Positions 1,205 to 62,900 of a stretch of 64,000 nt of DNA are shown one piece after another. Positions within the stretch are counted from its first letter, which is position 1, and each line of letters opens with the position of its first letter. The stretch is taken from positions 102,768 to 166,767 of the forward strand of contig NGBS01000017.1 of the NCBI GenBank assembly GCA_002245135.1, written 5' to 3'. The position numbers were made by a program, and so were the translations under genes. Below the pieces are notes generated by a model that saw nothing but the letters and a program-made list of their open reading frames with translations, was not told where the DNA came from and ran no database searches. Source of the DNA: Proteromonas lacertae. Taxonomy: Eukaryota > Sar > Bigyra > Opalinata > Proteromonadidae.

Positions 1205-3130
1205 ATGTATTTCAAGCAATTATTTGAATATTTAGAAAATGGTTTGAGAATTTCGAGCTATCATTTTGCATTTCAATTGTATATGGGTAAAACGAGAGAT
1301 GCTGTGTATAGATACTTTAATGAAGATGTGGTGTTAAAGAAACCCCTTGAAAAATACAACAGAATTCAATGCAGAAGGTGCAAGGCAATGATTATTGCTC
1401 ATTGCACTAATTTGAAACGTCATTACAAAAAGTATAAATATATTTATTATATTTATTAAATTAGATGTAGTGAAAAGCTAATCCAATCAAAACTTACAGA
1501 ATTGAGATATGATGAACGTGCAATAAACTTAATGGTGACCAAATATCTTATAGAAAATAACTTAGCTTTCAGAACCATACAATCTAAATCCTTTAAAAAT
1601 CTAATATATGCATTAAATCCAACTACAAAGTCAATAACAATAAACAAAATAAAAGCATCAATGAACGAAGAAGCAGAAAGAATAGTAAAGGAAATTGTAG
1701 ATAACAGTAAAATATGTATAATTGTGGACTCTTGGAAATCAGTAACCAATGAAAACGTTATTAATTTGGCAATAAAGAAAAGCAGTGATATTTCGTTTTT
1801 GGAATCCATTTATTTACATAAACGAGAAACATCAGAAAATATAGTGGAATTAATAATTCAAACATTAGTGAAGTATAAACTAGATATTAAAAACATTGTT
1901 GCTGTGAGTAGTGATAACAACTACACCATGAAAAAGATAAGTAGTATTTTAGAGAAAAAAATAAATAGACCTGTAGTAAAGTTTGGATGTTTAGCACACA
2001 TCCTAAACTTAATCAGTAAAAAAGTATTCGAAATAGAGAAATACAAAAAAGTGATAATCATGTGTAATGACATTATTCATAAGTTAAATAATAATCAAAA
2101 GATTAGAGAAATTATATATTCAATTATACAAAAAAATATCCAAATACGCAAGGGATGTGATACGAGATGGTCAAGCTATAGCGATGTATTTAGAAAAATA
2201 TTACTCAATAAAGAAATTTTATTACAGATAAAATTATTAAAGGAAGAAGATATACCAGAAATTAAAGAATGCTACAAGATTGCAAAATATATTTCCACAA
2301 ATATACACTTATTATGCAAAGATTCATCTACATTAAATGATGGTTTCAGAATATTGACCAAAATTAAAAGAAAGTTAATGAAAAGGTCATCAAGTGAAAA
2401 AGAACTTATTAAAGACATTATAAAAAAAGAGACTAGACATGCAAACTACAGCATTTTAGCTCTATATGAATTTTTAGACATAAACAGTAAACATAAATTT
2501 TCAGACATGGAGAAGGATAATATAAAAAGATATATATTATCTAAATTCAGCCCTATTTTAAATCAGAAAGCATTAAATGAGATATATCATTTTGAAAGAA
2601 GAAAACCATACTCCAAAAAGTGCCCTTCAGATATATTTTCGAAAAAGATATCAACTAATATATGGTACAATATGTATGGAGTTTTTTACCCAAATGTTAA
2701 GAAGCTATATGATATTCTTTCAACTATTCCTGTCACAAGCTCATTTATTGAACGTTCATTTAGTATTGAGGGAATAGTTCATAATCATATTAGAAATAAA
2801 TTACAGCTTAATACTATAAATAATATTTTAAGAATAAAATATGATTTATTAAAAGAAAAAAACAAAGAAAAAGATAGAAATGAAGATGATAATGATATTA
2901 GTGAAGAAGAATATAATTTAGATGTGCTGAATGAAATTGATAACAATATAGTATATGACACTTTAGATTATCAATGTTCTGGTGATGAAGATGAAAGTTC
3001 TGGTAGTTCTAGCGATGAAGGTTTAAGTGATGAAAATTCTAGTGATGAAGATAAAAGTTCTAGTGATGAAAATGAAAGTTCTAGTGATGAAGGTTTTAGT
3101 GATGAAGGATCTCAAAGCCCTTACTTTTAA
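1205..3130 (+). CDS. hAT transposase (BED zinc finger, RNase H-like core, C-terminal dimerisation)
   Basis: Two exons, 1205-1431 and 1465-3130, joined by a 33-nt GTATAA...TTAG intron; about 630 aa. The N-terminus has a BED-type finger, CRRC followed by NLKRHYKKC, whose last ligand is created by splicing. The catalytic fold shows IIVDSWKS (first Asp), AVSSDNNYTMKK (second Asp) and the FGCLAHILNL and RWSSYSD motifs typical of hAT proteins. Near the end, VTSSFIERSFSIEG and NHIRNKL form the hAT dimerisation region. The tail (about 60 residues) is a Ser-Asp-Glu repeat (SSDE/SDEG), acidic and low-complexity. It catalyses cut-and-paste excision and integration at 8-bp targets. There is no stop or frameshift, so it is plausibly active. 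Confidence 0.92.
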
Positions 3131-18938: not shown

Positions 18939-20344
18939 TTAATTACAATCAGAAATCAACGCTTTAGAAGAAGAATCTTCACTGCTTTCTCTTGTTAAAT
19001 TCTGTCTTCTCCTCTTCCATTCAATAACAGCAACAAAGAACAACACACTTGCAACACCAACACTACTAAACACCATTATGATGATAAAGGTGTAATTCTG
19101 AACTTTTTTATTATTTTCTTCATCTTTTGGAGGACAGCTTATCTGACCAAAATCATTTATATCTTTTCTATAATTTTCTGATAATATTTCACCATTTACA
19201 TCACGTATATAACTATAACAACTTTCATTTTTATATAAAACTATTGCTCTCGTACCAACTACTTCACCATATCCAGAATATCCTGTTTTAGCTCCAAAAC
19301 TTAGATTTATTCCATAATAATTTAAAGTGTAGTCATTTTGATGATTGTGACCTACATATACACCTAAAATATTGTTTCTAAATAAAATAAAATATAATAT
19401 TTTATATACTGCTCAATCATCGCTGTTATTAAACCAGTGTTTATTCTTGGACAACTTACTTCTTCTGTATGATTTCCACTTATATCAAATATCTAAATAA
19501 ATAATTAAAATATTATTATTATTACGTTTGTTCCATAAAAAAATTCTGGTGGAGGAATATGTAAAAATGCAATTCCTTTAATTGTCTTATTATTGTTTAA
19601 CTCATTCAATTCTTTACTTTTATTAACATACCATTTTATTACATCAGGATGAACACATCCCCAAGTATTTGTTACGTTTAAACATTCATTATTCATTGAG
19701 TCAAAAAACCATAAAATCATTTCCATTTTTTCATCTTTTTCATCATAGATTGGGATAAAATAGTAAAAAAAAAGAAATTATGGAAATTATAATGATAAAT
19801 AAATATAAAATGATATATTTGTAGTTCCATGAATACTATTTGGTCCTTTTTCAGTCATTGAATATGGATTAGTCTGATCTAACTCAATTATTTCATCTCT
19901 AGATAAATCATTCTACTTAAATAAATAAATAATTATCTATAAATATACACCAACATCGTGATTTCCAAATATATAGGCATATGGCACTCCAACAGAAGTA
20001 ACTGGTTGTGTATAGTTTTCCCAAGCAGTTTTAAAAAATCCTTCGTTTTTACTACGCTTTGTATAATCAGAAACCATGTCTCCTGTAAATACAACAAAAT
20101 CTGGTTTCTCGAGCTTTAGATTTTGTAATTGAAGTCTGTTACATAATGCATCCATCTCATTATCTTCTCCATAATGAATATCAGTAATCTAAATGTATTA
20201 TTATTCAAAAAATATACTTGAGTTATTTTAAAAGATCCATCATCTTTGAATTTTATATGTTGTGTGTATTTACAAGAAACATATACAATCAAAGTATATC
20301 TAAAATATATCTAAAATATTCAAATACATGAGAAAATAAAACAT
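18939..20344 (-). CDS. Calcineurin-like metallophosphoesterase (DCR2/PAP28-29-like), signal peptide and C-terminal membrane anchor
   Basis: The first exon plus splicing gives MFYFLIYTLIVYVSC, a good signal peptide. Metal-site motifs appear in family order: ITDIHYG (DxH), FVVFTGDMVSDYT (GDxxxD), YIFGNHD (GNHD), DISGNHTEEV and ILGVYVGHNHQND (GHxH). The C-terminus has a single transmembrane segment (FIIIMVFSSVGVASVLFF, about 19075-19030), then KRRR and a short Ser-rich tail. The protein is therefore probably a type I membrane or lysosomal/surface phosphatase. The domain order fits the purple-acid-phosphatase 28/29 and DCR2 group. Six introns are needed. Five are GT-AG; the one at 19763-19816 has no GT-AG solution and fits AT-AC ends exactly. 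Confidence 0.87.
19763..19816 (-). other. Candidate U12-type AT-AC intron in the phosphoesterase gene
   Basis: Read on the minus strand, the 54-nt intron begins ATATCATTT (U12 5' consensus ATATCCTTT) and ends with nine T then AC. TTCCATAAT, close to the U12 branch consensus TTCCTTAAC, lies with its branch A about 15 nt from the 3' end. Removal in phase 0 joins HGTTN to YFIPIYDE, restoring the family's G-x-x-N-Y segment before the LWFxDS-like MILWFFDS. The unspliced frame has two TAA stops, and no GT-AG pair in the interval restores the reading frame. Confidence 0.75.
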
Positions 20345-29306: not shown

Positions 29307-29507
29307 ATAACAAATAATAATAATAATTTAAAAATTTAAGGAGATTTTATACTCACACTATCATTAACATTTCTTCTACCACTTATATTTCTACTACTCA
29401 CAGAATTATTCTTTGCTCGAGGAGACATTACACTATAACTTTTACCAAACGCTTCTTCAAAAAAGAATTGTGGTTCAGATATTGTTGCCATTGCCATTTC
29501 ACCTGCT

Positions 29508-32500
29508 TCAAGTATTTTTGGGGTTAAACGGAAATCTACCTCGACTTGCTGCTGCTTTGGCTGATTTGTTTCTTTGAGTTCTAGAACCAGCAGAACTTCC
29601 ACTTCTACTTCCACCTGCTGTTGAAGATCCAAATGTTGATGATAATTCGGTTGTATATAAATACATTACTTTTGATCCAAATTGAACCAAGATTATCATA
29701 AATACACCGATTTCTATACCTAAACTTCTCAATAACATCAAAGTATCAGTTTCACTAGACATTAAATAATCCAATGGAACTAATATCACACCCATAATTA
29801 TCATAATAGCAATTGTCGCCATTAATGACATTGATTCATTAAATTCAGCTGAAGCATTTCTCACACTCCATGCAAGTTTCGCACCCCAGAAGAATAATAG
29901 GAAAACAGCTACTAATTCAATTGCACTATTCAAATAAAATAAATTAATAATAATAATAATAATATACACAAATGCTGTACTGGAAGTACATTCTCTCATA
30001 TGAACATCATCTAAATAAGTCGAATAACCGCTACTAAATGATAATGTCGGTTCAGATGGTGATACAATTTGCCATATAACTAAATACACAATTTGAATTG
30101 CTAATGTTAAACCAATCATTTTTAATAACATTGCATTTGATACTTTCACTTTCTGCAATTGTTTATTGTTAAACAATTTATGAATTCTCCATGCTTTACT
30201 AAACATAATACTAAATAATAAATCAATTGTTAAAGACAAACCCCATATTCTAATTGCACATATAATTTCATTATCAGCTAAGATTGTAAATACATCACCC
30301 ATAACTGATAACAAAAATAATGAGATTAAAGCATAATATAAAAACAAAGGACTTGCACTTTTGATTATTTTTGTATGTCGATAATAATATACCATTCCAC
30401 TTACCAAGATACAACAAACTCCATTTATACAACTGAAAGTAATAGATAAGTATCTATAAACTTCATTCAATTCATAAATTACATTATTCTTTGAGAATTG
30501 ACATTGAGTATCATCTGCTGAAACATATGTCATTTTACCTTCTACTATATACTCAATTCCTTGTTGTGGGAAAACTTGAATTAGTGATGTATCTGATAAT
30601 TGGAAGATATAAATATCTTTTGAAAAATGATTATTGTTCTCAGTTTTGATTGGACCAGAAGGACTATCATATGTTATATACTTCAAACTCAATTCAATAT
30701 AATCATTACCAGGCCATTGACAATTACCACAATTTGACATTGAATATTCTACCGCTTGTTTCCATGTGTAAATTGTACTATATGTATTTTCTAATATTTC
30801 ATTTAGTTCAATAGAATCTTGATATTCAGCTGTCATTAAGTATTGAAATGCACCTGAAGCAGTGTTTGTAACAGTTGGTGAATATGATGTAACAACATAA
30901 GAACCAGTCAATTTCTTTATTACATCTTCACCTAAATCTAAAGGATCATATTTCATAAAGAATAAAACAGTGGAACTTGTGATTGATGATTGAATATAAC
31001 CATTAATAAATTGAGTATTTTCACTAGCAAAGTATAAGTTAATAATTGCTACACGATTCAACTTATCTAATTTTGTTTCTATATCTTTTAACATTTGTTC
31101 TACATACACTGAATTAAAGGGTGATAAGAATGAATAACCAACTATTTCAATATGATCATTTTCATTATTAATATTTTCATTTACCTTATTAACTGATTTT
31201 TGTATTACATACAACTCAGTAGCGGATGAATTTCTATCACTTCCAACTACATATAATTTCTTTATTCCTAATGTCTTTATATAATCAATTAAAACATCAG
31301 ATTTTTGATTGATATTTAATCCACCAACAACCATATTCTTTTGGCATTCATAACCATCATCTCTTCCAGTAAAGAAGAATATTGAATTTTTATCTCTTAT
31401 GTATCTACTTACTTCAGTTCTACATTCAGCGGTTAAACATCCAAACATTGTATTTGATTTTCCTATTTCATCAATCATTCTTGCATTTCTATAAGCATCA
31501 GAGATAGTAACCCAAGTATGATTAGCTGCAATTTCTCTACCTAAAATCCCTCCAACATCATTGATTTCTTTGACTATTAAATCGATTAGTAATGCATTAT
31601 ATTTCTCAGTTCTTCCGCCTAAATCTTTCTCATGGAAGAAGGTAATAATGATTGGATTTGTATCATATCTTCTACCTCTATCTTTATTATAAAAATCACA
31701 AATCAAACCAATTTCACTTTCATTGTACTGATTATAAATTGATGGTTTAAATGATTGTGTTGGTGACCAGTCCACAACTATTTCACCTATTGAATTAATC
31801 GTTCCACTGTATATTCTTCGATTGAAATTATTATTTGGATTTACATCAACTGAGCCAGAAGGAGTTTCAACTGTATAATGATATAAATTAGTGATATCTT
31901 CATATAAGAATGAATTAGTTTTCTTAATCAATCCTTTCCAGAATGTTATAGCAGAATAAGCACTTTCATAATCTCCAATCACTTTGTGATCATCACCTAT
32001 TTGTACATGAATATCTTTATTACAAGTTGGTGCTAATGTTGGAACTCCAACAGTATTTAATTCACTTTTACCTACAGATTCAAAGTATGAATCAAATGTC
32101 ATAAAACCATTTAAACATTGTTTATTGTTATTGTTTGTAAATATTTTTTCTATCAAATTTTCATTGAATAATGAGTTGAGAATTGTGTAAGTTGGATAAC
32201 TAATTCCATTTTGACATATTACTTCATAAAATGCTAGTATATCTTCATCATTTGTTAATATTGTAATAATATAACCTCCATTGGGTAATGCTCTTTGTAT
32301 ATCAGTTGCTAAACGACGAGTATTGGTTCTATCCATAATAACATTACCATTCGAAGTGATAATCAAATTCTTCATCTTTTCAGTCATTAAGTCAGAGATT
32401 TTATTTGCAAATTGATCAGCTGATCTTAGTATAAATGCACTGGAACTATATTCTAATAGTCTTCTCAACACTGCTTGAGTGATTTGAGAAGGATGTAAAT

Positions 32501-35500
32501 GAGTTGATATAACATTCTGATAACAAGTATCACCTAATGATCTCCCTAAGAAAAAGAAGAGTTTATTACTTCCAGTTAATATATCACCAATTCTCTCTAA
32601 TGTTGAAGGTTTATAACCACCAAATATATAAGTATAACGAGTATTATTGACTAATTTCAATAATTCATTTTCATAAATATCATCCGATGATTTTGTATCA
32701 ATAACAGTGTAATTGATATAATTATCTAACAATAATCCATTTCGATTAATATCACCAATTGCTGCGATTAAACTGTCAAAGATTGGAGTTTCAATTTCTC
32801 TATCTTCACCTGTCAAAGATAACATAATTAAGATTGTATATGTTTGAACTGTATTTCCATCTTCTATATCTAAATTTGAAAAATCGCATTTCTTAAATAC
32901 ACCATTCACTGGTTCAAATGCTTCTGGAACAATTGCATCAGTCGAATCATAGATTAAAGTACTTGTTTTATTTTCATTAAATTTCAATATTTTGGGTATT
33001 CTCGATAAGTACTGATTTACTCCAAAATATACTAATCCTTCTGGTGAATTGTATTTTACACTTCTTAAAGCAACTCTGACATTATTTCTTTCTACATTTG
33101 CTACATCTACATTCTCTTCTTTTTTATTTTTAGGTAAAGAATCTAAGGCAGTTTGCCATAGTTTAATTGAACTGTAAGTTCTAATCATAACATCTGATAC
33201 ATAAACATCTGAATCAATTCTTTGATATAATTTATTCTTAAACTCCATATTAATATCAGAAGTATCATCAGGATTGTAGAATTCCATATATTCATAATTA
33301 TAATAAGGTAACTTTCTCATATGTTGAGAATTCTCCATAATAATTACGTTGAATGGAATTCCATTTCCATTGGTTGCTTCGTTAATATTATCCATTAAAA
33401 CACTGAATGAGTCTTCATATCCATAGAAGTATATACAAACAGATTCTTCTTTCATCATTGCTAATTGAGATATAATCTCTCTTAAGTTGGAATTTGAAAA
33501 TTCAACATCATTTACTTCATATTCAAATGTTGTAACATCTTCAATATTCATATTTTTAAGGTATTTCTCCACATATTTTGCATTATAATTATCTACATCA
33601 CTATCAATGAATATCATCATTTTATCATAAAATCTATTTCTTATAACATCTAATATCTTATCATAAAAACTCACATGTTTTACACCAACAAAGATTGGAG
33701 CATTACAATAGTTCAATTCCATTTCTAAAAGATTAAAAAATATTAATTCATTTTCAGAAGCAATTAAACTATCAACTGCAGCAACACATTCACTTTCAAC
33801 TGATCCAAATATAGCTAATGGATGATTCTCATTTATATAATCACTAATATATCTCATACAAATCTCCAAACTGCCTTGAGTATCATAAATATCAGTTTTT
33901 AATGAATAACCACCTATTCCTCCATTATCATTAATTTCATTAGCTGCCATTTGGAAAATATCAACGTAACCTTCAGCATTTTTAGAGGTTGATAATGCAG
34001 CAATCAATCCAACTCTTTTTATTGCAACTTTGTATTTATAACCAATCTCAGGTGTTCTTTCTGAAAATGAACATTGATATCCATAACTTGATGGAATGTT
34101 CCAATTCCAAGGAGAAGCACTTTGAACATCGTATTTGCTATAAATAGTTTGATAAGTCAAGCCGTCTGGATTGTATCGAATCACAAAGAATGGAGCTGTA
34201 ACGTAATTATTATCGTTCATTGTAATTATTCCACTACCAACTTGGAATGATACTCCATACGATCCTTTTCTTACTTTTTCTGTATCAAATGAATCAGCCT
34301 TTTTCACAGCTTCAGCATATAAATGGACAGCAGAATAAGATGCTTCAAATAATGAAGTTGGTTTATCTAAACTAACATAATCTAATGCTTTATTTAAAAA
34401 CTTCTCATTCTCTTCAGTTGGTAAATCATATGAGTATCTGACTATTTTATATATATTTTTTCTATCTTCAGCTGGAATTGTATCTGTTTCTTCAACTTCA
34501 AGGAATATATCAACAACAGCATACTTATCACTATCAATATTCAATCTACTGTAATACTCCATAAAACTCTTAAATACTTCAATTGACACAAATGTTGAAA
34601 TAATTATTCCACCTTCACTCATTTTAGATTGAATATCATTGAATAAATTGTAAGTTATTTGGCTTGTTTCATTATAATTAAATGATCCAACTTCATTAAT
34701 TAAACCATTTGCTTCACCTTTTATCATTGTTGCTAAATTCTTTGAATCTGGTTCATCTTCTGTAAGAATATAGTAATTATTCTCATAATCTACAACTAAT
34801 AAAAACTCCATTAATCTTGTGATAAATTGATTAGAAACCATTGATGTATAAAATGTATTATAATCACATTCTTCACCAGCTGTAATTCTTGGGTAGTAGA
34901 ACAATTTATTCGTTTCTACGGCTACTTTTTGTACAGCATTCTTACAGACAGGTTCTGTACAACCAACATATGCGACAACATCTTTATCTTGTTTTACTTC
35001 ATCCAATATACTCTCTAATTTACTAACATCACTATTGAAATTTATAAATTTCACTAAAAGTCGATTTTCTTTGATTTTGTCACCATCATATAATTCTCTT
35101 AAAGCTGTCATAGCACCAAGAAGAGCTTTTTCATGTGTTTTCTTATACATTCCAGCTGTAGCAAATACTAATACAATCTTCTTTACAGGAACATCAGTAA
35201 CAATTCTTTCATTACGTAAATTACATTCTTTTACTTCTTCATTATCTTCTAATACATTACCATAAGCTCTTTGTGGAATAGCAAAGGATGTTTTTTCAAT
35301 TATTTCATATGAATAATCGTATGATAAAACATTTCCATCTTCATCATCTTCTTTTACTACTTTACTGCCTCTCTTTAGATACATTGGCATTGAAAATCTG
35401 TTATTTGAATTAAAATGGATTTTACCTAATACTGTATCTGATTCATGATCATATAAAGCATCTTTTATTCCTCTAAATGTAACTTCAGAGTTTCTAGAAC

Positions 35501-38500
35501 AATCAGAAACTAAGTTTGCAAAAAGAAAACCTCTAGCAGTTGATTTACTAATAACAGGAATATAAGCAAATAATGAAGTAAATGTAGCTTTTATATCAGA
35601 ATAAAGTTGATTTGATTCATCTTCAGCAAACGTATCATAATAATAAGTTCCAACAGCTGCTTCACCTAATTTATAAATATCTAAATCACCCATATTTAAA
35701 CACAAAACAGTATAAAGTGCGAATAACTGAGATTGATGTAAAGATTCTATAAATGAAGACTTACTTACACCTTCTAACATTGAAACAATCAATGCACCAT
35801 CTGGAGATAATCTTTCAATATAACTGACTGCTTCACTCATATCTTTGTTTTCTAATGGGAATTGTAAATATACTTCTGGTATAATATTGAAAGTATTTAA
35901 ATCATACTTGAGTTTTTCAGCATAATAGTTAGAATAAATAGTATCAGAATATAATAGAATCACTTTACCTGGATTTAACTTCATTATTGTTGGAACTAAT
36001 GTATAATAAGTTGGATATCCAATTCCACCATAAAATCCATTTTCATGACATTCATTTGCTTCATAATCACGTGGGTAAAACAATAAACTATTCGTCTCAA
36101 CAGCAGCTTGATGTAACACATCTCTTATATCTGAAGTCCATCCTCCGAAGAATAAAAACATATTATATCTCTTTGCATAATCAATCAGTATACTCCTAGT
36201 TTCATTTAATGTAGTTCCTTCTACAATAATAAGCATATTTGCAGAAGTTCCTTTTATTCCACCATTTTCATTGATATGAACAAATGCAGCATAAACAGAT
36301 TCAAAAAATAGAACACCATCTGCTAAATACAATCTATTCTTAGGAATGACAATACCAATTCTAGTAAATGGAGCTTCAAATTGATCAACTTTTCTATCTT
36401 TCCAATCACAGATAATATAATTTTGTCTATTTAATGTAACACGATATGTTTCTCCTCTCCAATCTCTACTTACGTATTCTAATAGTTGAGTATCTCCATC
36501 TTTATTGATTGTACCAAAGAATATTGTTTGCGCAACATGATTACCAGAATCAACAGCTATTTTACCCATCACTGATTCTATTTCAACTTTATAAATAGAA
36601 TCGAACAATTGAGTAGTATTATCATAATTAATAACTGAAGAAAACAATGACAAAACCCATGCAGTAGAATCATATATTAAAATATCAGAATAGGTTGGTT
36701 GTGAACCACCAGTTAATTGATTATATAATTCTTTAAACTCAACATTATGTTTATCAGATGGATCATAAATATCAGAAGTGTAGATATAATGACCTTCAGA
36801 ATGAACAGCTGGTTCAAATTTACGATGAGTATCATCGATTAAATAGATTGTATATGTCTCTGCAATGTTTATTGTATCTCCATATTCTTCATTGAAATAT
36901 TCATAAAAATATTTGAAAAACATCTCAGAATTTTTCTTTTGTAGCATTACCAATATTACTCCTCCATTTGGCAATACATTCTCAAATATTCTACATAATC
37001 CAATTACTTGTAATCTTATATTAGTTTCATCTTTAGTAATATCAAGTTCAGCAGTATGTAATAATTCTATTTTCATCTCATTAAATACAGAATTAATCAA
37101 ATTAACTCTATTTTTATAAATCTTGTTATTAGAATGGACAAAAGTGAAATCTCGAATTGATTCTCTCATAAACAAATGGAATAGATATGGAATAACATCT
37201 TGAGATGGTGATGTTGACATATATATAGTTCTTTGGGAACAATCTTCACCTTCATTAAAACCAGTATAAACTAATAACAAACTTAACGCTTCAATTGTTG
37301 GTTGCATTGCTTCTCTTGATGTTGGGTTACAACCGCCAATAAATACTTTAAATCCTCTTTTATATAATGTGATTAATACAGAAGCAGCTTCTTTTTCTGT
37401 TGTTGGACAGTCATAAAGCTCTGAAACGACTGTATTTCCATTAATTCCACCATCATAATTGATCTGTTCTATTTTAGATAAAGCTAAAATGTATTTATTA
37501 AAACCATCATCACTAAAATCTAAGAAATATGCAATTTTGATTGGATTATATTCTCCTAATTTACCAGAATCACCTGTTTTATATGAAACAGTCATATATT
37601 TCATATCATTTTCAACAAAATAATATGGATAAGGCATTATTGGAAAGACAGTATTAACTACAAGTTCAAACTTATCATAATCAACACATTTCAATATCTT
37701 AGAATATGAACTTGCCCAATTAGAAGTAGTTATTTTCCTTTTTCCTGAAGGAGAATCAATTTCAACCAAATATAATTGGTTGATTATTTCATCTGAATTT
37801 AAAACTTGAATATTTGGCACAACAGCTTTTAGGAATAAGAATATATCATACATAAATACACCTTCAGTTGTAACTAATGTTTCTTGTCCTTTATAACCTG
37901 TTATATCACTTAACATCTTTTTATTTGCAGGAGTTTCACTGAATCTATAATACGAAATAATACCATAAGCATTTCTGAAATTATCATCATAATATGAATG
38001 AGTTCTATAATCGAATATGAATAATGGATAAGTTGTATTATCAATTGATTGATTATTATATTTTTCCACAAAAGTTAAGGTATAAGGATCAGTGAATAAA
38101 AACAAAGCAAATTTATCACTGTTTGAAGTTTCTGTTTTGATTTCTTTTGCTATATCTTCAGCATTTGTTGAATTTAGTTCTTTAATGAATAATATATCTC
38201 TTTTGAAATATGTACTATAAGCTTCTAATAATGCAAGACGATTAAGATTCAAACTATATATTATATAAATATATAAATATAAATACTCAGTTGTTACATA
38301 AACAATACCAATTTGATTATATCTCGTATAAGCATAATATAATGGAATAGAAACAGTTTGATGAGGTAAAAATGCCATTTGAATAATGAATTTATAATTT
38401 CCATTACCTTCTGGTGCACTAATTGCAAATATAATCACTCCCAATTCTTCGGTTTTCTTATAAACTGCTTTTCTTTCAGCTTTAGTATCAGTACCAATGA

Positions 38501-41187
38501 AGCATAATATATTATCATATCTCTTTACATATTTTTCATATATTCCTGCAATTGTTGTTGGATCTCCTTTATATTCTGTTTGTAGCACAACTAAATCTCT
38601 TCCATTTATTCCTCCATCTTGATTGAATAAATCAATATTCAACTGCAATGTTTGTAATCTTGCCTTACCTGCATCAGTTGATAAATCAAATAACACACCA
38701 ATATAATAGAAACTATAGGTTGATACTCCATTCTTATCTAAATAAATAATAATGAATATTTAATTATATATATACTCTTCTTCCAATTACAAGTCCTTTC
38801 TCCATCAATGAAAGTATTTTCAATTCTGTTAAAAGCATCTTCAAATACTAACAAAGAAGCACCTGTAGCATTCAATTCAACAATTCTAATTCTTCCTATA
38901 CCATATCCATTATAATATATCTCAAATGGACCAGCAATAGCATTTTCTAAAGAATCATGATAAATATATTCCAAATAATCAGAAGGCTTATAATAAGATC
39001 TTATCGTTACTGCATTTCCAAATATATTAATCATATTTAAAGCTAATCCCATAGCATTAGTAAGAGGTAAATCATATCCACATTGCGCTTTCATATATTC
39101 TCTAAATCCAATTAATAAATTATATTCGTTACTATCTTTATCATCATAATAATGTGTTAAATATTTCACATTTTCCATTTTATTAAAGCCAATATTTCGT
39201 GCAATTGCTTCATTGAGAGTAAATGACAAAATTGTATAATTCTTATTAGCTACAATATTCTTATTAATTAATCTTTCAAATAATTTAATCTGATAATCTT
39301 GAGTAGCAGTTATAATAATAAAACCACTCTTTAAATAATCCAAAATGTTCTTATCAATCACTTTATCAAGGTAAATATCATCAGTTTGAACTAAATAAGA
39401 CACTGAAATATCAGTAGTTATATATCCTTCACCATTCAGTTTATTAATCAAAGATTCAGTCACTATCCTTCCATAATGATCACCGCTGGAGACGATTACA
39501 TATTGTGGATTTTCAAATGTATTTAAATATTGCACAGTACATTGTATATAATTCATTGCCATTGGATTTACATATATTACATTCTTTAAACATTCATCTC
39601 CTTCGCTTGGACTTAGATAGAAGAATTGAAAATCTTCTTCTACCAACAGTTTTGCTAATTGCATTCTTTCTTCTGCTGAACATACTAGAATGCCTGAATG
39701 AGCATCGAATCTTTCTATATTGTCTATTATTTCATCACTTACTTCTCCCATAGTTTTATCATCCATATTGACGAATAATTGTCGAATATGTTTACCTGCT
39801 ATTCCTCCATTTACATTCACTCTTTCAATCATATATAAAAAGAATTCTCTTAGATATCTATTTTCCGAATTTTCAATTCCTTTGATTCTCTGAATAAACA
39901 TCACTATTAGTGATGAATAATCAGATAATCCTTCTTTATGATTGAGAGTAAAATTACAAGTTTGATTACCTATTTCACCCATTATATTGGTTGGTTCAAA
40001 TGATGTTGAAATCGTTATTGTATAAGATGGAACATATGGATCAGATCTAGCACCATCTTTTTGAAATAAATGTTCAGTTGTCGATGTATAGTGATTTTCT
40101 AACAGCACTAAATATCCACCAGCATATGGTATTTGCTTATTATACATTACTGTTAATAAGTCAAGGATATTAGTGGATTTCAATTGGTCTAATGCGTATA
40201 ATAACATATTCATTATTCCCAATCTATTTACAAAATAATATAATAAAAATATATTTAAATAATATACATATAAACTTCTTCATATTGATTTTCTGAATTT
40301 AAGAAAGATTTATATTTGTTTTGATATTCTACACTATATTCATTACTACTATTAAGATATTCATCATAACCTCTTAAATGATAATTCTTTTCATTATTTG
40401 CTGCTGTTTCAAATGTACCTTGATCAAACCCAGAGGTTAATACAATAACTGGATAATCTTCATTATTCAAAGAATATGTATTTACTTTTAAATCTAAAAA
40501 TTTACTATACATATCTTTATTCCAGGAAGACCAGTATGTTACAACCGTTTTCTTTGAATCTGTAATGTTCTGAAGGTATTCTTTAAAAACATCTTCAGTT
40601 AATTCGATATGATGATAATTTCCCATTTGAGATTGACCAAAATAGTATGAAGCTGGAAATATTCTTTCAGAAATAAACTCATCGATTGGTCTACTATCAC
40701 CTATAAAGCCTACTGCTTCTACTTTTGCTGACATGAACTGAGCAACTATTGATTTATATAATCAGATTATTTTCATACGAGTTTCGATATTGTTAATCAT
40801 TGAATTTCCCATAATAAAATTTTTGGAACATCTACCTTCATTGTAAGTGTTTAAACACCAGATAAATATTCCCTTTTCAGTTAGATAGTCATCGACTGTG
40901 CTATTCATTACTTCAGGAGTGCAGGTTGTATAATAGAAAGACGGCTTAGGATTAGCAACAGCATTAAGAGTTTTAATCAACTCTTCTGGAGAGTCAGCAT
41001 ATTTATACTCTTTGAATTCTATTTCTATATCACCACTTGCAGGTAAATGATCAGTCATATATTTATTTACCATATTTAGTCTATTCAGATCATCTGCAGG
41101 GTCTACAATTGTTCTAGTGAGATATCCTATATCTAACTTAAATGAATTTACGGAATATAAAACAATAAATAATAACAACACTTTCAT
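29508..41187 (-). CDS. Giant class C GPCR with nine tandem Venus-flytrap modules
   Basis: One gene of about 3,850 aa. ATG 41187 begins a signal peptide (MKVLLLFIVLYSVNS). Introns near 40735-40767, 40217-40260, 38705-38745 and two in-frame introns (about 38258-38290 and 29930-29972) are GTAT...TAG and join in phase. Nine type 1 periplasmic-binding-like modules of about 390 residues follow. They end at Cys-containing linkers near 39955, 38790, 37685, 36405, 35225, 34073, 32886, 31695 and 30505. Most start with NxxGGIxG (for example NQDGGINGRD, NENGGIKGTS, NDVGGILGRE) and eight carry a conserved Cys loop (GDTCYQN, GYECQKN, GEECDYN). A family-3 7TM domain follows, with IIKSASPLFLYYALI, AWRIHKLFNN and FWGAKLAWSVRN with FNES. 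Presumably a surface ligand sensor. The tail after 29640 is uncertain. Confidence 0.93.
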
Positions 41188-41330: not shown

Positions 41331-43565
41331 TTATTTTGTAATAGATTCATAATTTCTTATAATTGCGTCAATATCGAATACATTCTTAGTATAACAATCT
41401 TCTTTCCTTGTATTTTTTGTTATAAACCCTAAGTACTCCAGTTCATACACAGCTCTCATAAATCTCAATTTCAACTCTTCCTCTGCCAATTTCGGGATAT
41501 GATTAGCATATTTATCATGAAAAATGTTATACCAATCAGATATGTTAATATTTGTATTGCTTTCACCATAAATACTGTATAATATACATCTATCATCCAT
41601 ATAAGATCTGTCATTGATATTTTTACAACATTCACATGCAATGTAATACGATGGAGTTTTTAATGCACTAATTAAACTCTCTCTCGGCTTAATTTGGTAT
41701 AATTTTTGTACATAGCAGGAGTATGGTATAAATATAGATTCATACATCGTAAAATCATATATATTAGGGAATAAGTGTTTTGTAATATTGTTAATTAATT
41801 CAATTAGTTGATTTGTAGAAGATGTAACATTACCTAATAATAATTCTTTTCTTCCTTCTTTTGTTCTACTTTTTAGTCTTTTTGCCTTTATTTCTTTATT
41901 ATCATTATCATTATTAATATTATTATCTTTTTTCGTTGATTTCTCAATTATGGCTAATTGTTGTTTATCTTCATCACACTATTATTATTATTATATATAT
42001 AAAAATAGAATATACTATATCTAAAGTATTAATAACCTTGATAAAACTATCAATTTCATCTTTGGTATAATATTTGATCTTATTTATCATCATAGTATGA
42101 AATGATGACTTTAACAATAAATTAATATCCAAAGAATCTAAATAAATGTTTCTTATATCACTTGGTCTATCAATGGATAAATTTGATTGTTTTAAGAGTT
42201 GAATATAAATATTCAGTTTATTTTCTCTGCTATTCAAATAATCAAATAGACTATTTCTCCAAATATTCATCTATATATATATAATGATTATTAATTATTA
42301 TATTATTTATTAAATATATACATTTTGATGTGTTTTATCTTGGTTTTGAACTGATTCTAAATCTGCAATAATAAATCTAAAATCAGGTGGTAAAGTTGGT
42401 TGTAATAAAGTTGAATGTAATAATGGATAATTGTAATAATGTTCAAATATAATACCTTTCAACTTATTTAAAAATGTATAAATTGATAAATTTGAAACAA
42501 AGAACTGATCTATCAAATTATTCAATATTTTGTAATGAAAAATGAAATGAATATTATTTTGAACGAATAAATATTTAAAAACATCTTCAAATGCAGATAT
42601 TGAATCAGCAAGATGAATCTTTTTAATTTGAATATTTGAAACGGATGAAAATTGATTAATTATTTTATGATAAAATGTATTTACACCGAAGAAAAGCTTG
42701 ATTGGAATGTCTTTATTAATGGTAGTGAGTAATTCCATAAACTGTAATAACACACTATATGAAACACTTTCTATAAATGGTATAATAATTACAACCCATT
42801 TTCTTTTCCTATCATCCTTATTCAGATGATAATATTTCTTTACAAATAAATGAAATGAATTATAGTCATCTACTCGAGGAATTACAGATGGGATATATTT
42901 AGATATATTTATAGATGTATTTTTTGATATTGAATTGATAGCTGAGGTTTTTCTGAATTTGAATGATGAATTTGGAGTAATATCTGATGATGAAGAATGA
43001 CTTTGAATTAGCAATGAGGCTAACAGTGATGCTAATAACTTATCAATTGTTACAGTAGTCTATATAGTAATAACATAATAAAAGAATATATATATATACA
43101 TCTTTATCAAATATAAAGAAATATGAATCTTGATTGGATGATATATATGAAATGAATTGAGATACAATTGTATCATTATCTACTGCATTCATTCCCATAT
43201 GAACCATAGCAGTTGGTAAATATAAATGTGGTGTTGGACTATCAAATATTATAAGATATATTATCATACCAATCCAATGGTTTTAAGTAGAAATTATAAA
43301 TCTCTTGAAATGCTTTATTATTGACAGAACCATAAACTCCATTGACTTTCTCTTCAACTTGAGACCAAAATGTCTGAAACGCAGCAATAGCTAATTCATT
43401 TAAGTTTTGCTTTTGATTTAGTTGTGAAATTTTATTATCAGGTACTTTCAGATCTGTGAAGCATAGAGGGTAATCGCATGCAACAGGCGTAGCTTTCGGA
43501 TAAAATGTACATGATTCAACAACCTCATCCTCATCATCTTCCCATATTTCATCCATTTTAATCAA
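41331..43565 (-). CDS. ORC3: Origin recognition complex subunit 3
   Basis: Five exons or more, with introns near 43242-43269, 43042-43082, 42270-42310 and 41975-42012. The N-terminal part has LYLPTAMVHMGMNAVDND and then SSNQDSYFFIFDKD. The central part has WVVIIIPFIESVSYSVLLQF, IKLFFGVNTFYHKI, and FIFHYKILNNLIDQF with LNKLKGIIFEHYY, which match the ORC3 AAA-like core. The C-terminal winged helix has LISALKTPSYYIACECC, WYNIFHDKYANHI and LRFMRAVYELEYLGFI, a strong ORC3 signature. It works in ORC to mark replication origins and load MCM. The start may be ATG 43565 or the in-frame ATG 43556 (MDEIWEDDEDE). It is divergent from RSPH14, about 55 bp away. Confidence 0.87.
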
Positions 43566-45729: not shown

Positions 45730-46716
45730 TTATAATTTCACAACTCCACTAACAAGTGCAATCAAAGCCATTCTTACATACATACCATTCTCCATTTGTT
45801 TAAAATAAGCAGCATTAGGTGTATCATCAACTTCTTCTAAGATCTCACCAATTCTTGGTAAAGGATGCATAACAATCATACCAGGTTTAGAAATTTCTAG
45901 AGTTTTCTTCGATATAATATATCTGCCTTGATATTTCAAATATTCTTCTTGAGTTGGGAATCTTTCTTGTTGAACTCTAGTGACATACAATACATCAGTT
46001 TCTTTCAAAATATCTTCAGTCAATTCTTCAGATACATTCTGAGTGATTCCTTTCTCTTTGATTTCATCGAATACACAGGAAGGCATTGATAATTCAGATG
46101 GTGATATGTAATTTAATGTAACTTTAAACATCGATAATAATCTTGACAAAGAATGAACCGTTCTACCATATTTCAAATCACCTACCATTGTTACGGTTAA
46201 ACCGTCAAATGTATGATATTGATTGTAGATAGTATACATATCTAATAAAGCTTGACTTGGATGTTCTCCATCACCATCTCCAGCATTAATTACTGGTTTG
46301 GGGGTATATTGTGATGCCAAATCAGCAGCACCGCGTTGTGGATGACGTAATGTTATTATATCACAGTAATTTTCTAAACATCTCACAGTGTCTTGTAATG
46401 TCTCTCCTTTTTTAGCTGATGATGTTTCTGCACCAATTTGAATTACATTACCACCCAATCTCATCATAGCAGCAGCAAATGAGGAAGATGTTCTTGTTGA
46501 AGGTTCTAAAAACACATTTGCCATTATTTTTCCTTCCATAAGTTTGCATGAACCGCATGTCTTTACGATATCTTTCATTCTATCAGCTACAGTCAATACA
46601 TCGAACAGCTTCTCTACATCGAATTGTTTTACGCATAAAACATCCAATCCTCTCCAAGCAATAAGATGACGTTTTGTCTATAAAAATATAAACATTTATT
46701 CATTTAATACATCCAT
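45730..46716 (-). CDS. Aspartate carbamoyltransferase, stand-alone
   Basis: A 6-nt first exon (Met-Asp, 46711-46716), a 33-nt intron (46678-46710), then one exon beginning TKRHLIAWRGLDVL. All ATCase active-site blocks are present: FLEPSTRTSSSFAAAMMRLG (carbamoyl-phosphate STRTS loop), LRHPQRGAAD, INAGDGDGEHPSQALLD, GDLKYGRTVHSL, YVTRVQQERF and MHPLPRIGEI. The sequence looks like the ATC domain of the CAD/URA2 type, but no CPSase or DHOase is fused; the protein is about 307 aa. It makes carbamoyl-aspartate, the second step of pyrimidine synthesis. No organelle-targeting peptide is visible. Confidence 0.96.
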
Positions 46717-59962: not shown

Positions 59963-62900
59963 ATGAATAAAAGGAAGAATACTGATAAGCAGAAGAAATA
60001 TGCTTTAAATGCAAAAACTCATTTATTAGAAAAGATGTTTAGAAAATGAGGATAGTACTTCCCAATATTTCATTAATGCAACTAGTAAAAGAAGGAAAAT
60101 AAGTGAATCCTCCTATATGAGGAATTTAAATAATAATCCTCGAGTACATATTATAAATCCTGATTATGGAATGTATTTTGGTGGAGGAGATGATGATATG
60201 GATGATGATAGAATTCATCCTCCAAGAGGAAATTTAGAGGAAAGAATAAAAAGGTATGAATTAGAAGGACAATCCTCTGAAGGAGTAACAAGGAAGTACG
60301 TTACTAATTTAAAGGATATTCATCTTCTTACTCCAGAAGATTATTATAATTTCATTGTTGATAACACAGATGTTGCTTTAAGAATAAGTGAAATAGCACA
60401 TGAAATGAAAAATATTAAAGTATACTTTGTATTTTGGTATGTTTATACTTCTTCGGAAGATGAATCAGGTGAGGAAGTATCCTTATTTCATAATACAAGA
60501 AATATATTAATAAATGAGTATGATAGTCCTGCATCAGTAGCAGCAAAGATGCGTTCCTTATTTCATTCTATTAATGAGGATGACTTTTCTCCTCCAGAAT
60601 CTGGTTTAATATTCCAATATATGGATTTAATGGAAACTCATATTAATCAATACCAAATTATGGCAGGAGCAGGAGGAAATTATCATATACCTGATATATT
60701 TAATAATAAGTATTGTTTAGATCCTTGTGAAAATAAGGATAATGATAATATGGATTGTTTTTGGAGAGCAATTAATTCCTGTTTAAAAAAAAACATTTAC
60801 CTCAAATACAACCTAGTAGCGATTTTATTACAATACCAGTAGCTCCTGTTAATAATCCTGATATAGATAAAGTAGAGCAAACTTATGATTTAAACATAAA
60901 TGCATTTGCAATTGATGAAGAGGAAAAGGACAAACCTAAAATCCTTCCATTAAGATATAGCATAATTGATAAGAATGTTGGTAATCCTGTTATTAATTTA
61001 TTATTCCTTCCTAATAATAATGATACTACAGATGAAGTAATTACAGGACATTATTGTGCAATTAAATCCTTAAATCAAGTATTTAGCTTAGTTTTTGGTG
61101 TAATATTTAAGAATAAAACAAGTCCTTTGGTTTGTCCTTATTGTCCCTTTTATACTTATAATGCAAAATCATTTGTAAATCACAAAACAGTAAATTGTCA
61201 AAATCCTGATAATGTAATAAGGATATTTCCTGATAAGGATAGTGAGGAAGCTTTTATGAAATTTGAACATTCTAACAGAGAGGATATGATTCCTGTTGTT
61301 ATTTATTACGATACAGAAGCATACATTGTCCCTATTGATAATTCTCAGGAAAAGACAAAAACATTAAGATCCTTCAAAAATGAACATAAGTTAAAATCAT
61401 ATTGTTTATATATTGAAAGTAAAATTCCTCAAATTAAATCTACAACTATTATGAATGTGAAGATATCCGAAGATGAAAATTTAGAAAAAGAATTTATGGA
61501 GGATATCATGACAGTATATAAAGATGTAAAACACTTATATAATATAATAAACTTATATCCTAAAGATTGGGATCAAAATGAGGAAGATTTAGCTATTCAT
61601 ATGAGTAAAACTGTTTGTGATTTTTGTAATAAACCTTTTACTCCTTTTGATCCAAAAGTCCTCCATCATAATCATTTCACTGGAAAGTACATTGCTTCAA
61701 TTCATTCCAAAGAGAACTTATCAATTAAAGTAAAAGGATACAAGATTCCTATAATTGGTCATAACGCTATGAGATATGACCAACATTTCATCATTAGAGA
61801 ACTTGCAGAAATTGCTAAACAGACTGGTTTAAATTTGGATATCCTTCCTTCTACTGATGAAAACTATAAAGCTATATTCTTTGATAGATTAATGTTCATT
61901 GATTCATACCAATTCCTTTCTGAAAAATTATCTAGTTTAACAGAGGATTTAAAGATAACAGCTTTAGAGTTAAATTGTAAAAAGGAAAAGTTTAAAGTCA
62001 TTTATGATAACTTTCCTGAGTTAGATGAGGAAATCATTGATAAGTATCTTCTTCAGAAAAACTTCTTTCCTTATGAATGTTGATTGTTTGGAAAAATATG
62101 ATAATCAATTTAAGGATTTGAAGATTCAGGATTTCTATTCAAGTTTATCCAATTCAACAATAACAGAAGATGAATATAAGTTTGCAATGGAAGTGAATAA
62201 CATTTTGTTTGAAGGAAAAGCTTCTATAGGAGAATATTGTAATTTCTATTTAAGTATTGATGTTTATATCCTATGTTCAGTATTTGAGGATTTTAGACAA
62301 AACATCTTTAATCACTTTCATATTGATCCTTGTTGGTATGTTTCAATTCCTAGTTTATCCTTGGATTTGTTCTTGAAAGAAATTCATGAACCTGAAATAT
62401 ATGATTTCATCCTTAATGGATTATATGGAGGATTATCCTATATAGGAAAGAGGAAAGAAGATGCTAATAATTTCTATATGAAGGATTATGATCCAAAGAA
62501 ACCTTCAAAGTTTATTGTTTATCAGGATATGAATTCCTTATATCCTTCAGTAATGTATTTATGTAAACTTCCTATAAGGAATTATCATCTTTATTGTTAT
62601 GAAGATCCTGGTTGTCCTAAACTTCATGAGATATTAGATTCTACTAAATTCTATGATAAGAATGATTCCTTTGAAACTACAGGATATATGTTAGAAGTGA
62701 TATTGAACCTATTTCCTATTATAAGGAGTATTTAAGAGAATATCCTATTCTACCTTCAAGAAGGAAGATTAGCTATGATGAATTGTCAGATATACAAAAA
62801 GAAAAATTAGAAGTATTATACTCTCAAAAAAGGATGATCAGAAAAATCTGATGTTCATAAATATGTTTCCTCTGAAAAGTTAGTTACTGATTTATTGCCT

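Follow-up and report, generated by a model that had tools for sequence, protein, structure and literature searches.

A class C receptor gene with nine predicted Venus-flytrap modules in Proteromonas lacertae

Introduction

Well-known class C G-protein-coupled receptors (GPCRs) carry one Venus-flytrap (VFT) module per protomer, and modules of this type usually bind small molecules. In mGlu receptors, a cysteine-rich domain lies between the VFT and the seven-transmembrane (7TM) domain, and BvgS possesses two VFTs. The gene described here lies on the minus strand of a 64,000-nucleotide stretch of Proteromonas lacertae DNA (contig NGBS01000017.1, positions 102,768 to 166,767; hereafter the window) and encodes a predicted signal peptide, nine VFT modules in a row, and one 7TM domain. 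By its 7TM domain and VFTs, the predicted protein is a class C GPCR in a new architectural variant. It belongs to a large family in this genome, with a nine-module layout that is fixed as far as visible. The whole proposal, namely a nine-VFT receptor of a fixed-layout family with a constant signaling half, a variable distal half, and G-protein output, has in our estimate a probability of about 0.7.

Tandem VFTs in a single receptor chain have precedents. The respective sources describe two VFTs in tandem in Trypanosoma receptor adenylyl cyclases (PMC6027212), two VFT units in tandem in CdgH (PMC5431781), and VFTs in tandem in BvgS (PMC4352136). The cyclases and BvgS differ from the present receptor in having two VFTs and a cyclase or kinase output in place of a 7TM domain. 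According to Seppala et al. 2016 (PMC5168858), about half of the fungal class C GPCRs carry prokaryote-like extracellular binding domains, and many class C receptors occur per genome, as in this case. The fungal proteins use type II binding domains or pectin-lyase folds in N-terminal domains of 200-1,600 residues, whereas the window gene encodes nine type I UrtA-like modules spanning approximately 3,500 residues. Other sources report numerous 7tm_3 proteins in Neocallimastigomycota (PMC11878562) and choanoflagellate GPCRs with varied ectodomains (PMC12716839); the portions available of the choanoflagellate and the fungal class C work mention no VFT array. In a literature search reaching few subscription papers, the number of VFTs per receptor never exceeded two.

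The closest described relatives of the two halves are the GABA-B receptor and the bacterial binding proteins UrtA and AmiC. Compared with the Protein Data Bank (PDB), the 7TM domain lies nearest to GABA-B subunit 2 (1.8e-15) and GABA-B subtype 1 (4.3e-14), followed at a distance by mGlu3 (1.1e-8). The fifteen best PDB rows are GABA-B subunits, a ranking by sequence rather than by tree. As in GABA-B, the VFT meets TM1 without a recognized cysteine-rich domain; in contrast to the single VFT per GABA-B chain, nine UrtA-like VFTs are present, along with a cysteine strap that is predicted to tie a VFT loop to the linker. Module 5, the VFT that was compared with the PDB, has its closest matches in urea-binding proteins (8hic, 6.8e-11; 7s6f, 2.2e-10; 7s6e, 1.8e-9) and in 8tg1, annotated as an extracellular ligand-binding receptor (1.4e-10), with AmiC (1pea, 2.5e-4) farther away than the UrtA chains. 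The modules share the Peripla_BP_5 fold family with UrtA and AmiC, but form a tandem array fused to a GPCR, without an ABC transporter, and most have lost the canonical pocket motifs. Chain 8hic carries the motifs YEGxEC and GGWTSxxR together with the cysteine loop of the receptor modules, which is therefore likely inherited from the binding-protein family. No bacterial relative of module 5 was found in genome_contigs with single-sequence patterns.

One chain with nine modules

The sequence-only reading of the window had proposed one spliced class C GPCR frame with a signal peptide, nine flytrap modules, and one 7TM domain, and both the domain scans and the reading frame agree with that view. 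Its single spliced frame stands, although the protein comprises 3,829 aa rather than approximately 3,850. All four GT-AG junctions that it had placed near 40.75, 40.24, 38.72, and 29.95 kb are present and in phase (introns 40778-40746, 40267-40224, 38775-38738, and 29967-29926), whereas a fifth, in-frame intron had been overlooked. The five introns are AT-rich (6-18% GC), 33-44 nt long, and bounded by GT-AG. The longest open frame of the gene reaches 3,083 codons. When the stretch was simulated 200 times with a first-order Markov model, no frame exceeded 148 codons, which excludes a chance origin.

Pfam scans were carried out with each module and the 274-residue 7TM part taken singly. The nine modules are 371-399 residues long, in keeping with the roughly 390 noted earlier, and eight of them (modules 2-9) pass the Peripla_BP_5 cut-off with E-values from 6.5e-31 to 2.4e-13. 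The 7TM part matches 7tm_3 at 6.1e-40 (137.9 bits, cut-off 33.5). Module 1 gave no significant Pfam match when scanned singly. Its profile, compared by hhalign with modules 2-6, 8, and 9, aligned to module 3 with 96% probability (E 4e-9, 321 columns), to module 6 with 95.7%, to module 5 with 92.5%, and to module 9 with 84%. Module profiles were built from segments of at least 85% coverage and without the diverged paralog loci C244 and C283 (see below). Eight flytrap modules are recognized by Pfam and the ninth by hhalign. The interpretation as one chain of nine VFTs and a class C 7TM domain holds, with the amendment that Peripla_BP_5 is the better-fitting family for the VFTs; matches to ANF_receptor appear in modules 4 and 6 only and are weaker. 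The NCD3G cysteine-rich domain is absent from the Pfam scans. Since GABA-B receptors also lack NCD3G, its absence excludes the mGlu/CaSR branch only.

Modules within one receptor share 13-30% identity, in line with the strong divergence claimed earlier, and the motif NxxGGIxG is indeed kept in six modules and absent from three. The cysteine loop attributed to eight modules is present as a loop cysteine in eight of nine (all but module 3), but the strict form [GN]xxCxxN occurs in four. Other motifs appear specific to position: GCx[ST]xxC and G[RKT][DE][DN]GxxC are common to all 12 module 9 sequences compared, and the other positions show patterns of their own.

Evidence for one polypeptide comes from homologs identified by a protein search in which the best 7,992 candidates by shared words were scored. 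Homolog P0002 comprises 3,886 aa, read from a single unbroken frame of a 13.8-kb contig. Its nine modules keep the order of the window protein, with which it aligns in one stretch (39.5% identity over 3,940 columns). When all modules of one protein are compared with all modules of the other (9 x 9), the own position scores best in nine of nine cases, with identities from module 1 to module 9 of 29, 31, 31, 36, 35, 45, 45, 51, and 52%. Because P0002 aligns in one stretch and its modules match by position, separate genes are very unlikely. Partial relatives include P0003 (2,643 aa) and P0004 (2,016 aa).

A receptor family with an apparently fixed layout

The search for related receptors covered 50.2 Mb in 1,181 contigs. 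Of 151 candidates for 7tm_3, 150 were scored and 132 matched, a figure that counts fragments and near-identical copies as well. For Peripla_BP_5, a first look returned 683 candidates, and all 112 that were scored matched. Some receptor copies are 98.9-99.7% identical (C1163/C1113, C1147/C571, C18/C957, C134/C1000, and C140/C667) and resemble pairs of haplotypes that the assembly did not merge. Given that such copies look like separate haplotypes, the number of 7tm_3 matches exceeds that of genes.

Eleven paralog loci were labeled with position-specific module profiles. Modules 1-9 (M1-M9) and the transmembrane (TM) part follow one another in order at seven of these loci (C134, C356a, C713, C140, C356b, C1147, and C1163), and contig ends cut C571 (read from M5) and C1113 (from M4). 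Locus C244 first received mixed labels; updated profiles give modules 3-9 in order, plus weak out-of-place matches. At C283, only the TM part was labeled at first and mixed labels resulted from the updated profiles, while Pfam finds two or three periplasmic-binding stretches. Its homolog P0006 (75% identity over the searched region, 72% over 3,488 columns) begins inside module 1 and contains nine linker cysteines by a count made by eye. Spacing and reading suggest that C244 and C283 also possess nine modules. Over the 10 kb examined at C18, the order runs from the end of M2 through the TM part.

A tree of 73 modules, with three members each for M1 and M2 and without the near-identical copies C1113 and C571, resolves each position as its own clade, with support of 1.0 for eight positions and 0.99 for M3. 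Because each position forms its own clade, the tree places the completion of the nine-module array before the radiation of these receptors. Later module shuffling is not seen in the tree set.

A predicted disulfide strap

The loop cysteine and a cysteine in the linker occur together. Among 79 modules from related sequences, near-identical copies included, 71 have both, eight have neither, and none has one alone. The initial count was 69 with both and two with the loop cysteine only; these two are cut segments, and their linker cysteine was found in the downstream translation. The eight modules lacking the pair are seven M3 copies and M8 of C356a, presumably reflecting one loss in M3 and a second event in C356a. 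As the cysteines covary in all 79 modules, a disulfide that joins the linker to the loop of lobe 1 would be the simplest reading. In module 9, the linker cysteine is residue 3513, located 15 residues ahead of the presumed start of TM1. A strap at this site would fasten the 15-residue linker to the VFT, possibly as a stand-in for the cysteine-rich domain of mGlu receptors.

Mosaic divergence and probable gene conversion

Divergence is distributed unevenly along the receptor. Mean identity among relatives, computed without C1113, C571, C140, and P0003 (near-identical copies and one converted partner), is 28% in M1 (two sequences), 29% in M2 (three), 27% in M3, 28% in M4, and 29% in M5, against 33.5% in M6, 34% in M7, 38% in M8, 42% in M9, and 51% in the TM part. 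At the DNA level, C713 and C140 share 50-68% identity over M1-M5 and 68-90% in M6, rising to 96-100% from mid-M7 to M9, apart from a single 250-base interval at 86%. The TM part shows 79-99% identity, and the 3' flank only 44-51%. These are different loci: the 98.9% match between C667 and C140 extends through the 3' flank, but C713 ceases to match both at 19501.

A second pair consists of the window gene and C104, its closest paralog found (85% identical over M8-TM). Synonymous divergence (dS), compared over M1-M8, amounts to 1.40, 1.11, 1.04, and 1.13 in M1-M4, 0.78 in M5, and 0.29, 0.45, and 0.44 in M6-M8; module 3 of C104 contains four stop codons (intron or misalignment). This drop in dS is not readily explained by selection on the protein. 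Taken together, the homogenized membrane-proximal half and diverged distal half in the two gene pairs would be best explained by gene conversion.

The ratio of non-synonymous to synonymous divergence (omega) between the window gene and C104 is 0.22-0.51 across M1-M8. In three near-identical pairs, 42 codon differences are synonymous and 10 are non-synonymous. Both measures indicate that the receptor genes are maintained by purifying selection. Putative intron-like frame breaks, among which assembly errors may occur, were recorded at the seven fully ordered paralog loci; 33 of 40 fall in M1-M4 and four in M5-M9. Likewise, four of the five introns of the window gene lie within M1-M4. Exchange biased to the 3' end and few 3' introns would fit conversion by cDNA, a speculation prompted by the shared part being the 3' end and the frame breaks being mainly 5'.

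Proposed working of the receptor

The most likely role of these proteins, as judged from their sequences, is that of a chemosensory receptor family with a constant signaling end and a variable outer end. Placed in series, the nine UrtA-like VFTs would form a long outer arm, joined to a GABA-B-like 7TM domain by a short linker that a predicted disulfide would strap to the last VFT. Small ligands would close one or more modules, and closure would be relayed along the strapped arm, through module 9, to the 7TM domain, which would signal through a heterotrimeric G protein. Modules 6-9 and the 7TM domain would constitute the constant signaling part, kept alike among paralogs by gene conversion, and modules 1-5 the diversified part and likely site of ligand or contact specificity. 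The sequences themselves demonstrate the architecture, the family, the orthology of modules by position, the mosaic divergence of two gene pairs, purifying selection, and the covariation of the cysteines. We infer the disulfide, ligand binding, and this division of labor, as well as the G-protein output, for which the 7TM family and the genome's matches to G-alpha and RGS provide the basis.

With 12 G-alpha matches (several genes being in pieces) and 85 RGS matches, G-protein signaling is well provided for in this genome. The 12 G-alpha matches are pieces of fewer genes, as opposed to 85 matches for RGS. RGS domains are greatly expanded, with several close tandem arrays (C371:35555-37924, C85:159889-162376, C633:46605-48155, and C36:15317-17545).

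The current understanding of class C receptor activation concerns protomers with a single VFT. If the proposal is correct, nine VFTs in series raise the questions of what distance a closure signal can cover, whether several ligands can be integrated by the same chain, and what keeps the number at nine. The family would also give a single-celled organism a repertoire of chemoreceptors in which one half is constant and the other variable, and would provide a template for stacked binding modules.

Alternative readings

Two alternatives concern the gene and its history. That more than one gene, or a chimera made by the assembly, was read as a single gene is barely credible: the gene spans 11.7 kb, was read from genomic DNA alone, and shows a frame change at its 3' end, but P0002 is unbroken over 3,886 aa with its modules in the same order, seven paralogs elsewhere share that order, and the main frame is 3,083 codons long. 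An outward gradient produced by functional constraint only, without gene conversion, is improbable. Stronger constraint is expected in membrane-proximal modules, and the gradual rise in the pair C356b/C713 agrees with it; the pair formed by the window gene and C104, in which dS lies above 1 in M1-M4 but at about 0.3-0.45 in M6-M8, does not, and neither does the near-identity of C713 and C140, which is patchy and flanked on both sides by diverged sequence.

The remaining alternatives address function. The array may be mostly a spacer in which ligand binding is confined to one or two modules, such as 5 or 9, while the others form a rigid stalk that raises the sensor through a surface coat. We regard this possibility as a serious one, well short of even odds. 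Pocket motifs are degenerate in most modules, only module 5 of the window gene retaining the UrtA pattern by eye, and some M9 motifs occur in 12 of 12 sequences. A mere stalk sits less well with nine positions that stay separate lineages, both in the profile-fitting paralogs and in a homolog from another source, and with omega values of 0.31-0.51 in M1-M4, which denote constraint though no direct sign of ligand binding. At the opposite end, the modules could make up a multi-ligand or avidity sensor, a possible reading of the sequence in which some modules may still be spacers. Its fullest version, a nine-VFT repertoire diversified by directional (possibly cDNA-templated) conversion in which several modules per chain bind different small molecules whose effects are summed on one G-protein output, is tentative and somewhat doubtful. 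Adhesion or recognition, in which the arm would touch symbionts, polymers, or bacteria taken as prey, and the 7TM domain would be triggered by contact or by pulling, is an unlikely alternative on balance: the ectodomain is very long, the outer modules are more diverged, and giant ectodomains occur in adhesion GPCRs, but only VFT and 7TM families rose above the cut-off in the Pfam scans, with no GAIN domain or known adhesion fold among them, and binding of small molecules is the usual task of a VFT.

We retain the chemosensory reading, with a constant signaling end and a variable outer end, as the preferred one. Several observations count against it. Fourteen loci behind the 132 7tm_3 matches were read at length, and five of these are incomplete, owing to contig ends or to the extent read; C244 and C283 were too diverged to fit the first profiles. 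Module 1 depends on a three-sequence profile that aligns weakly to M2 (1.5%), M4 (10.8%), and M8 (29.1%), and by percent identity it is nearest to M8 of P0002 (36%, over a shorter overlap) and not to M1. The outward identity gradient is flat within M1-M5, and constraint can partly account for it. In a third pair, C356b/C713, identity increases gradually and without a step; it is 48-58% in M5 and reaches at most 94% in the TM part. Finally, because the UrtA pocket motifs are degenerate in most modules, many modules may bind nothing; the near-canonical GGWTSxxR pattern kept by module 5 of the window gene (by eye) varies in some paralogs.

Gene layout and genomic context

The coordinates of the receptor gene and its parts are collected in Table 1.

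Table 1. Features of the receptor gene, in positions of the window
Feature	Position	Strand	Remarks
Whole receptor gene	29508..41187	minus	Six exons, 3,829 aa; ATG at 41187, stop at 29508; open and in phase across five junctions
Exons	41187-40779, 40745-40268, 40223-38776, 38737-38287, 38253-29968, 29925-29508	minus	
Predicted signal peptide MKVLLLFIVLYSVNSF	41140..41187	minus	Hydrophobic peak at residues 3-21; judged by eye, no dedicated predictor
VFT module 1, residues 17-387	39950..41139	minus	Contains two introns; no significant Pfam match; hhalign to module 3
VFT module 2, residues 388-776	38783..39949	minus	Peripla_BP_5 2.4e-13
VFT module 3, residues 777-1159	37563..38782	minus	Without loop and linker cysteine; Peripla_BP_5 1.4e-19 (in-frame intron left in during scan)
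Fifth intron, in-frame, 33 nt	38254..38286	minus	GTATTT...TATAG, 6% GC; residues missing from homolog P0002 (by eye)
VFT module 4, residues 1160-1546	36402..37562	minus	Peripla_BP_5 1.7e-21
VFT module 5, residues 1547-1941	35217..36401	minus	Most UrtA-like pocket motifs; Peripla_BP_5 8.2e-20; PDB 8hic 6.8e-11
VFT module 6, residues 1942-2325	34065..35216	minus	Peripla_BP_5 6.5e-31
VFT module 7, residues 2326-2720	32880..34064	minus	Peripla_BP_6 5.6e-18, Peripla_BP_5 3.2e-16
VFT module 8, residues 2721-3116	31692..32879	minus	Peripla_BP_5 7.4e-25
VFT module 9, residues 3117-3515	30495..31691	minus	Membrane-proximal, most conserved; Peripla_BP_5 1.5e-24
Class C 7TM domain, residues 3528-3781	29655..30458	minus	Contains one intron; 7tm_3, GABA-B subunit 2, hydrophobic peaks
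C-terminal tail	29336..29545	minus	Stop at 29508; other frame runs on to 29336

The 3' end of the gene deserves separate mention. The tail in the other frame resembles, by eye, the tails of homologs P0002 and P0003, and a GT-AG stretch at 29539-29503 could link both tail frames. It was first accepted as a sixth intron and then ranked below a frame change, because its GC content (38%) exceeds that of the five introns. A frame change at this site, real or made by the assembly, is thus more likely than an unusual GC-rich intron. Directly upstream of the receptor gene and on the same strand, pieces of an ORC3-like gene (ORC3_N and ORC_WH_C; 41331-43059) end approximately 140 bp before the receptor ATG.

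Gene content also offers hints on the organism. COX1 has no match in the genome, and one hydrogenase-like gene is present in pieces; both would fit an anaerobe. The EF-1alpha of this genome is without the opisthokont insertion, which we take to be a marker of that group, and together with the missing COX1 match this suggests an anaerobic protist outside animals and fungi. The EF-1alpha argues against an anaerobic gut fungus as the source; a search for fungal dockerins gave no match here, but gave none in the control genomes either. A protein search with RAB3GAP2 returned one relative, 73% identical. An ornithine carbamoyltransferase-like gene lies on the minus strand of the window (45730-46677) and, considered with the lack of a COX1 match, would fit an arginine-fermenting anaerobe. 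Two further features on the plus strand are a DNA_pol_B_2 match of the organellar and viral type B polymerase kind (62025-62735, 2.7e-9), possibly a mobile element, and a hAT-type transposase (DUF659 and Dimer_Tnp_hAT; 1460-3130) with short tandem repeats near its end.

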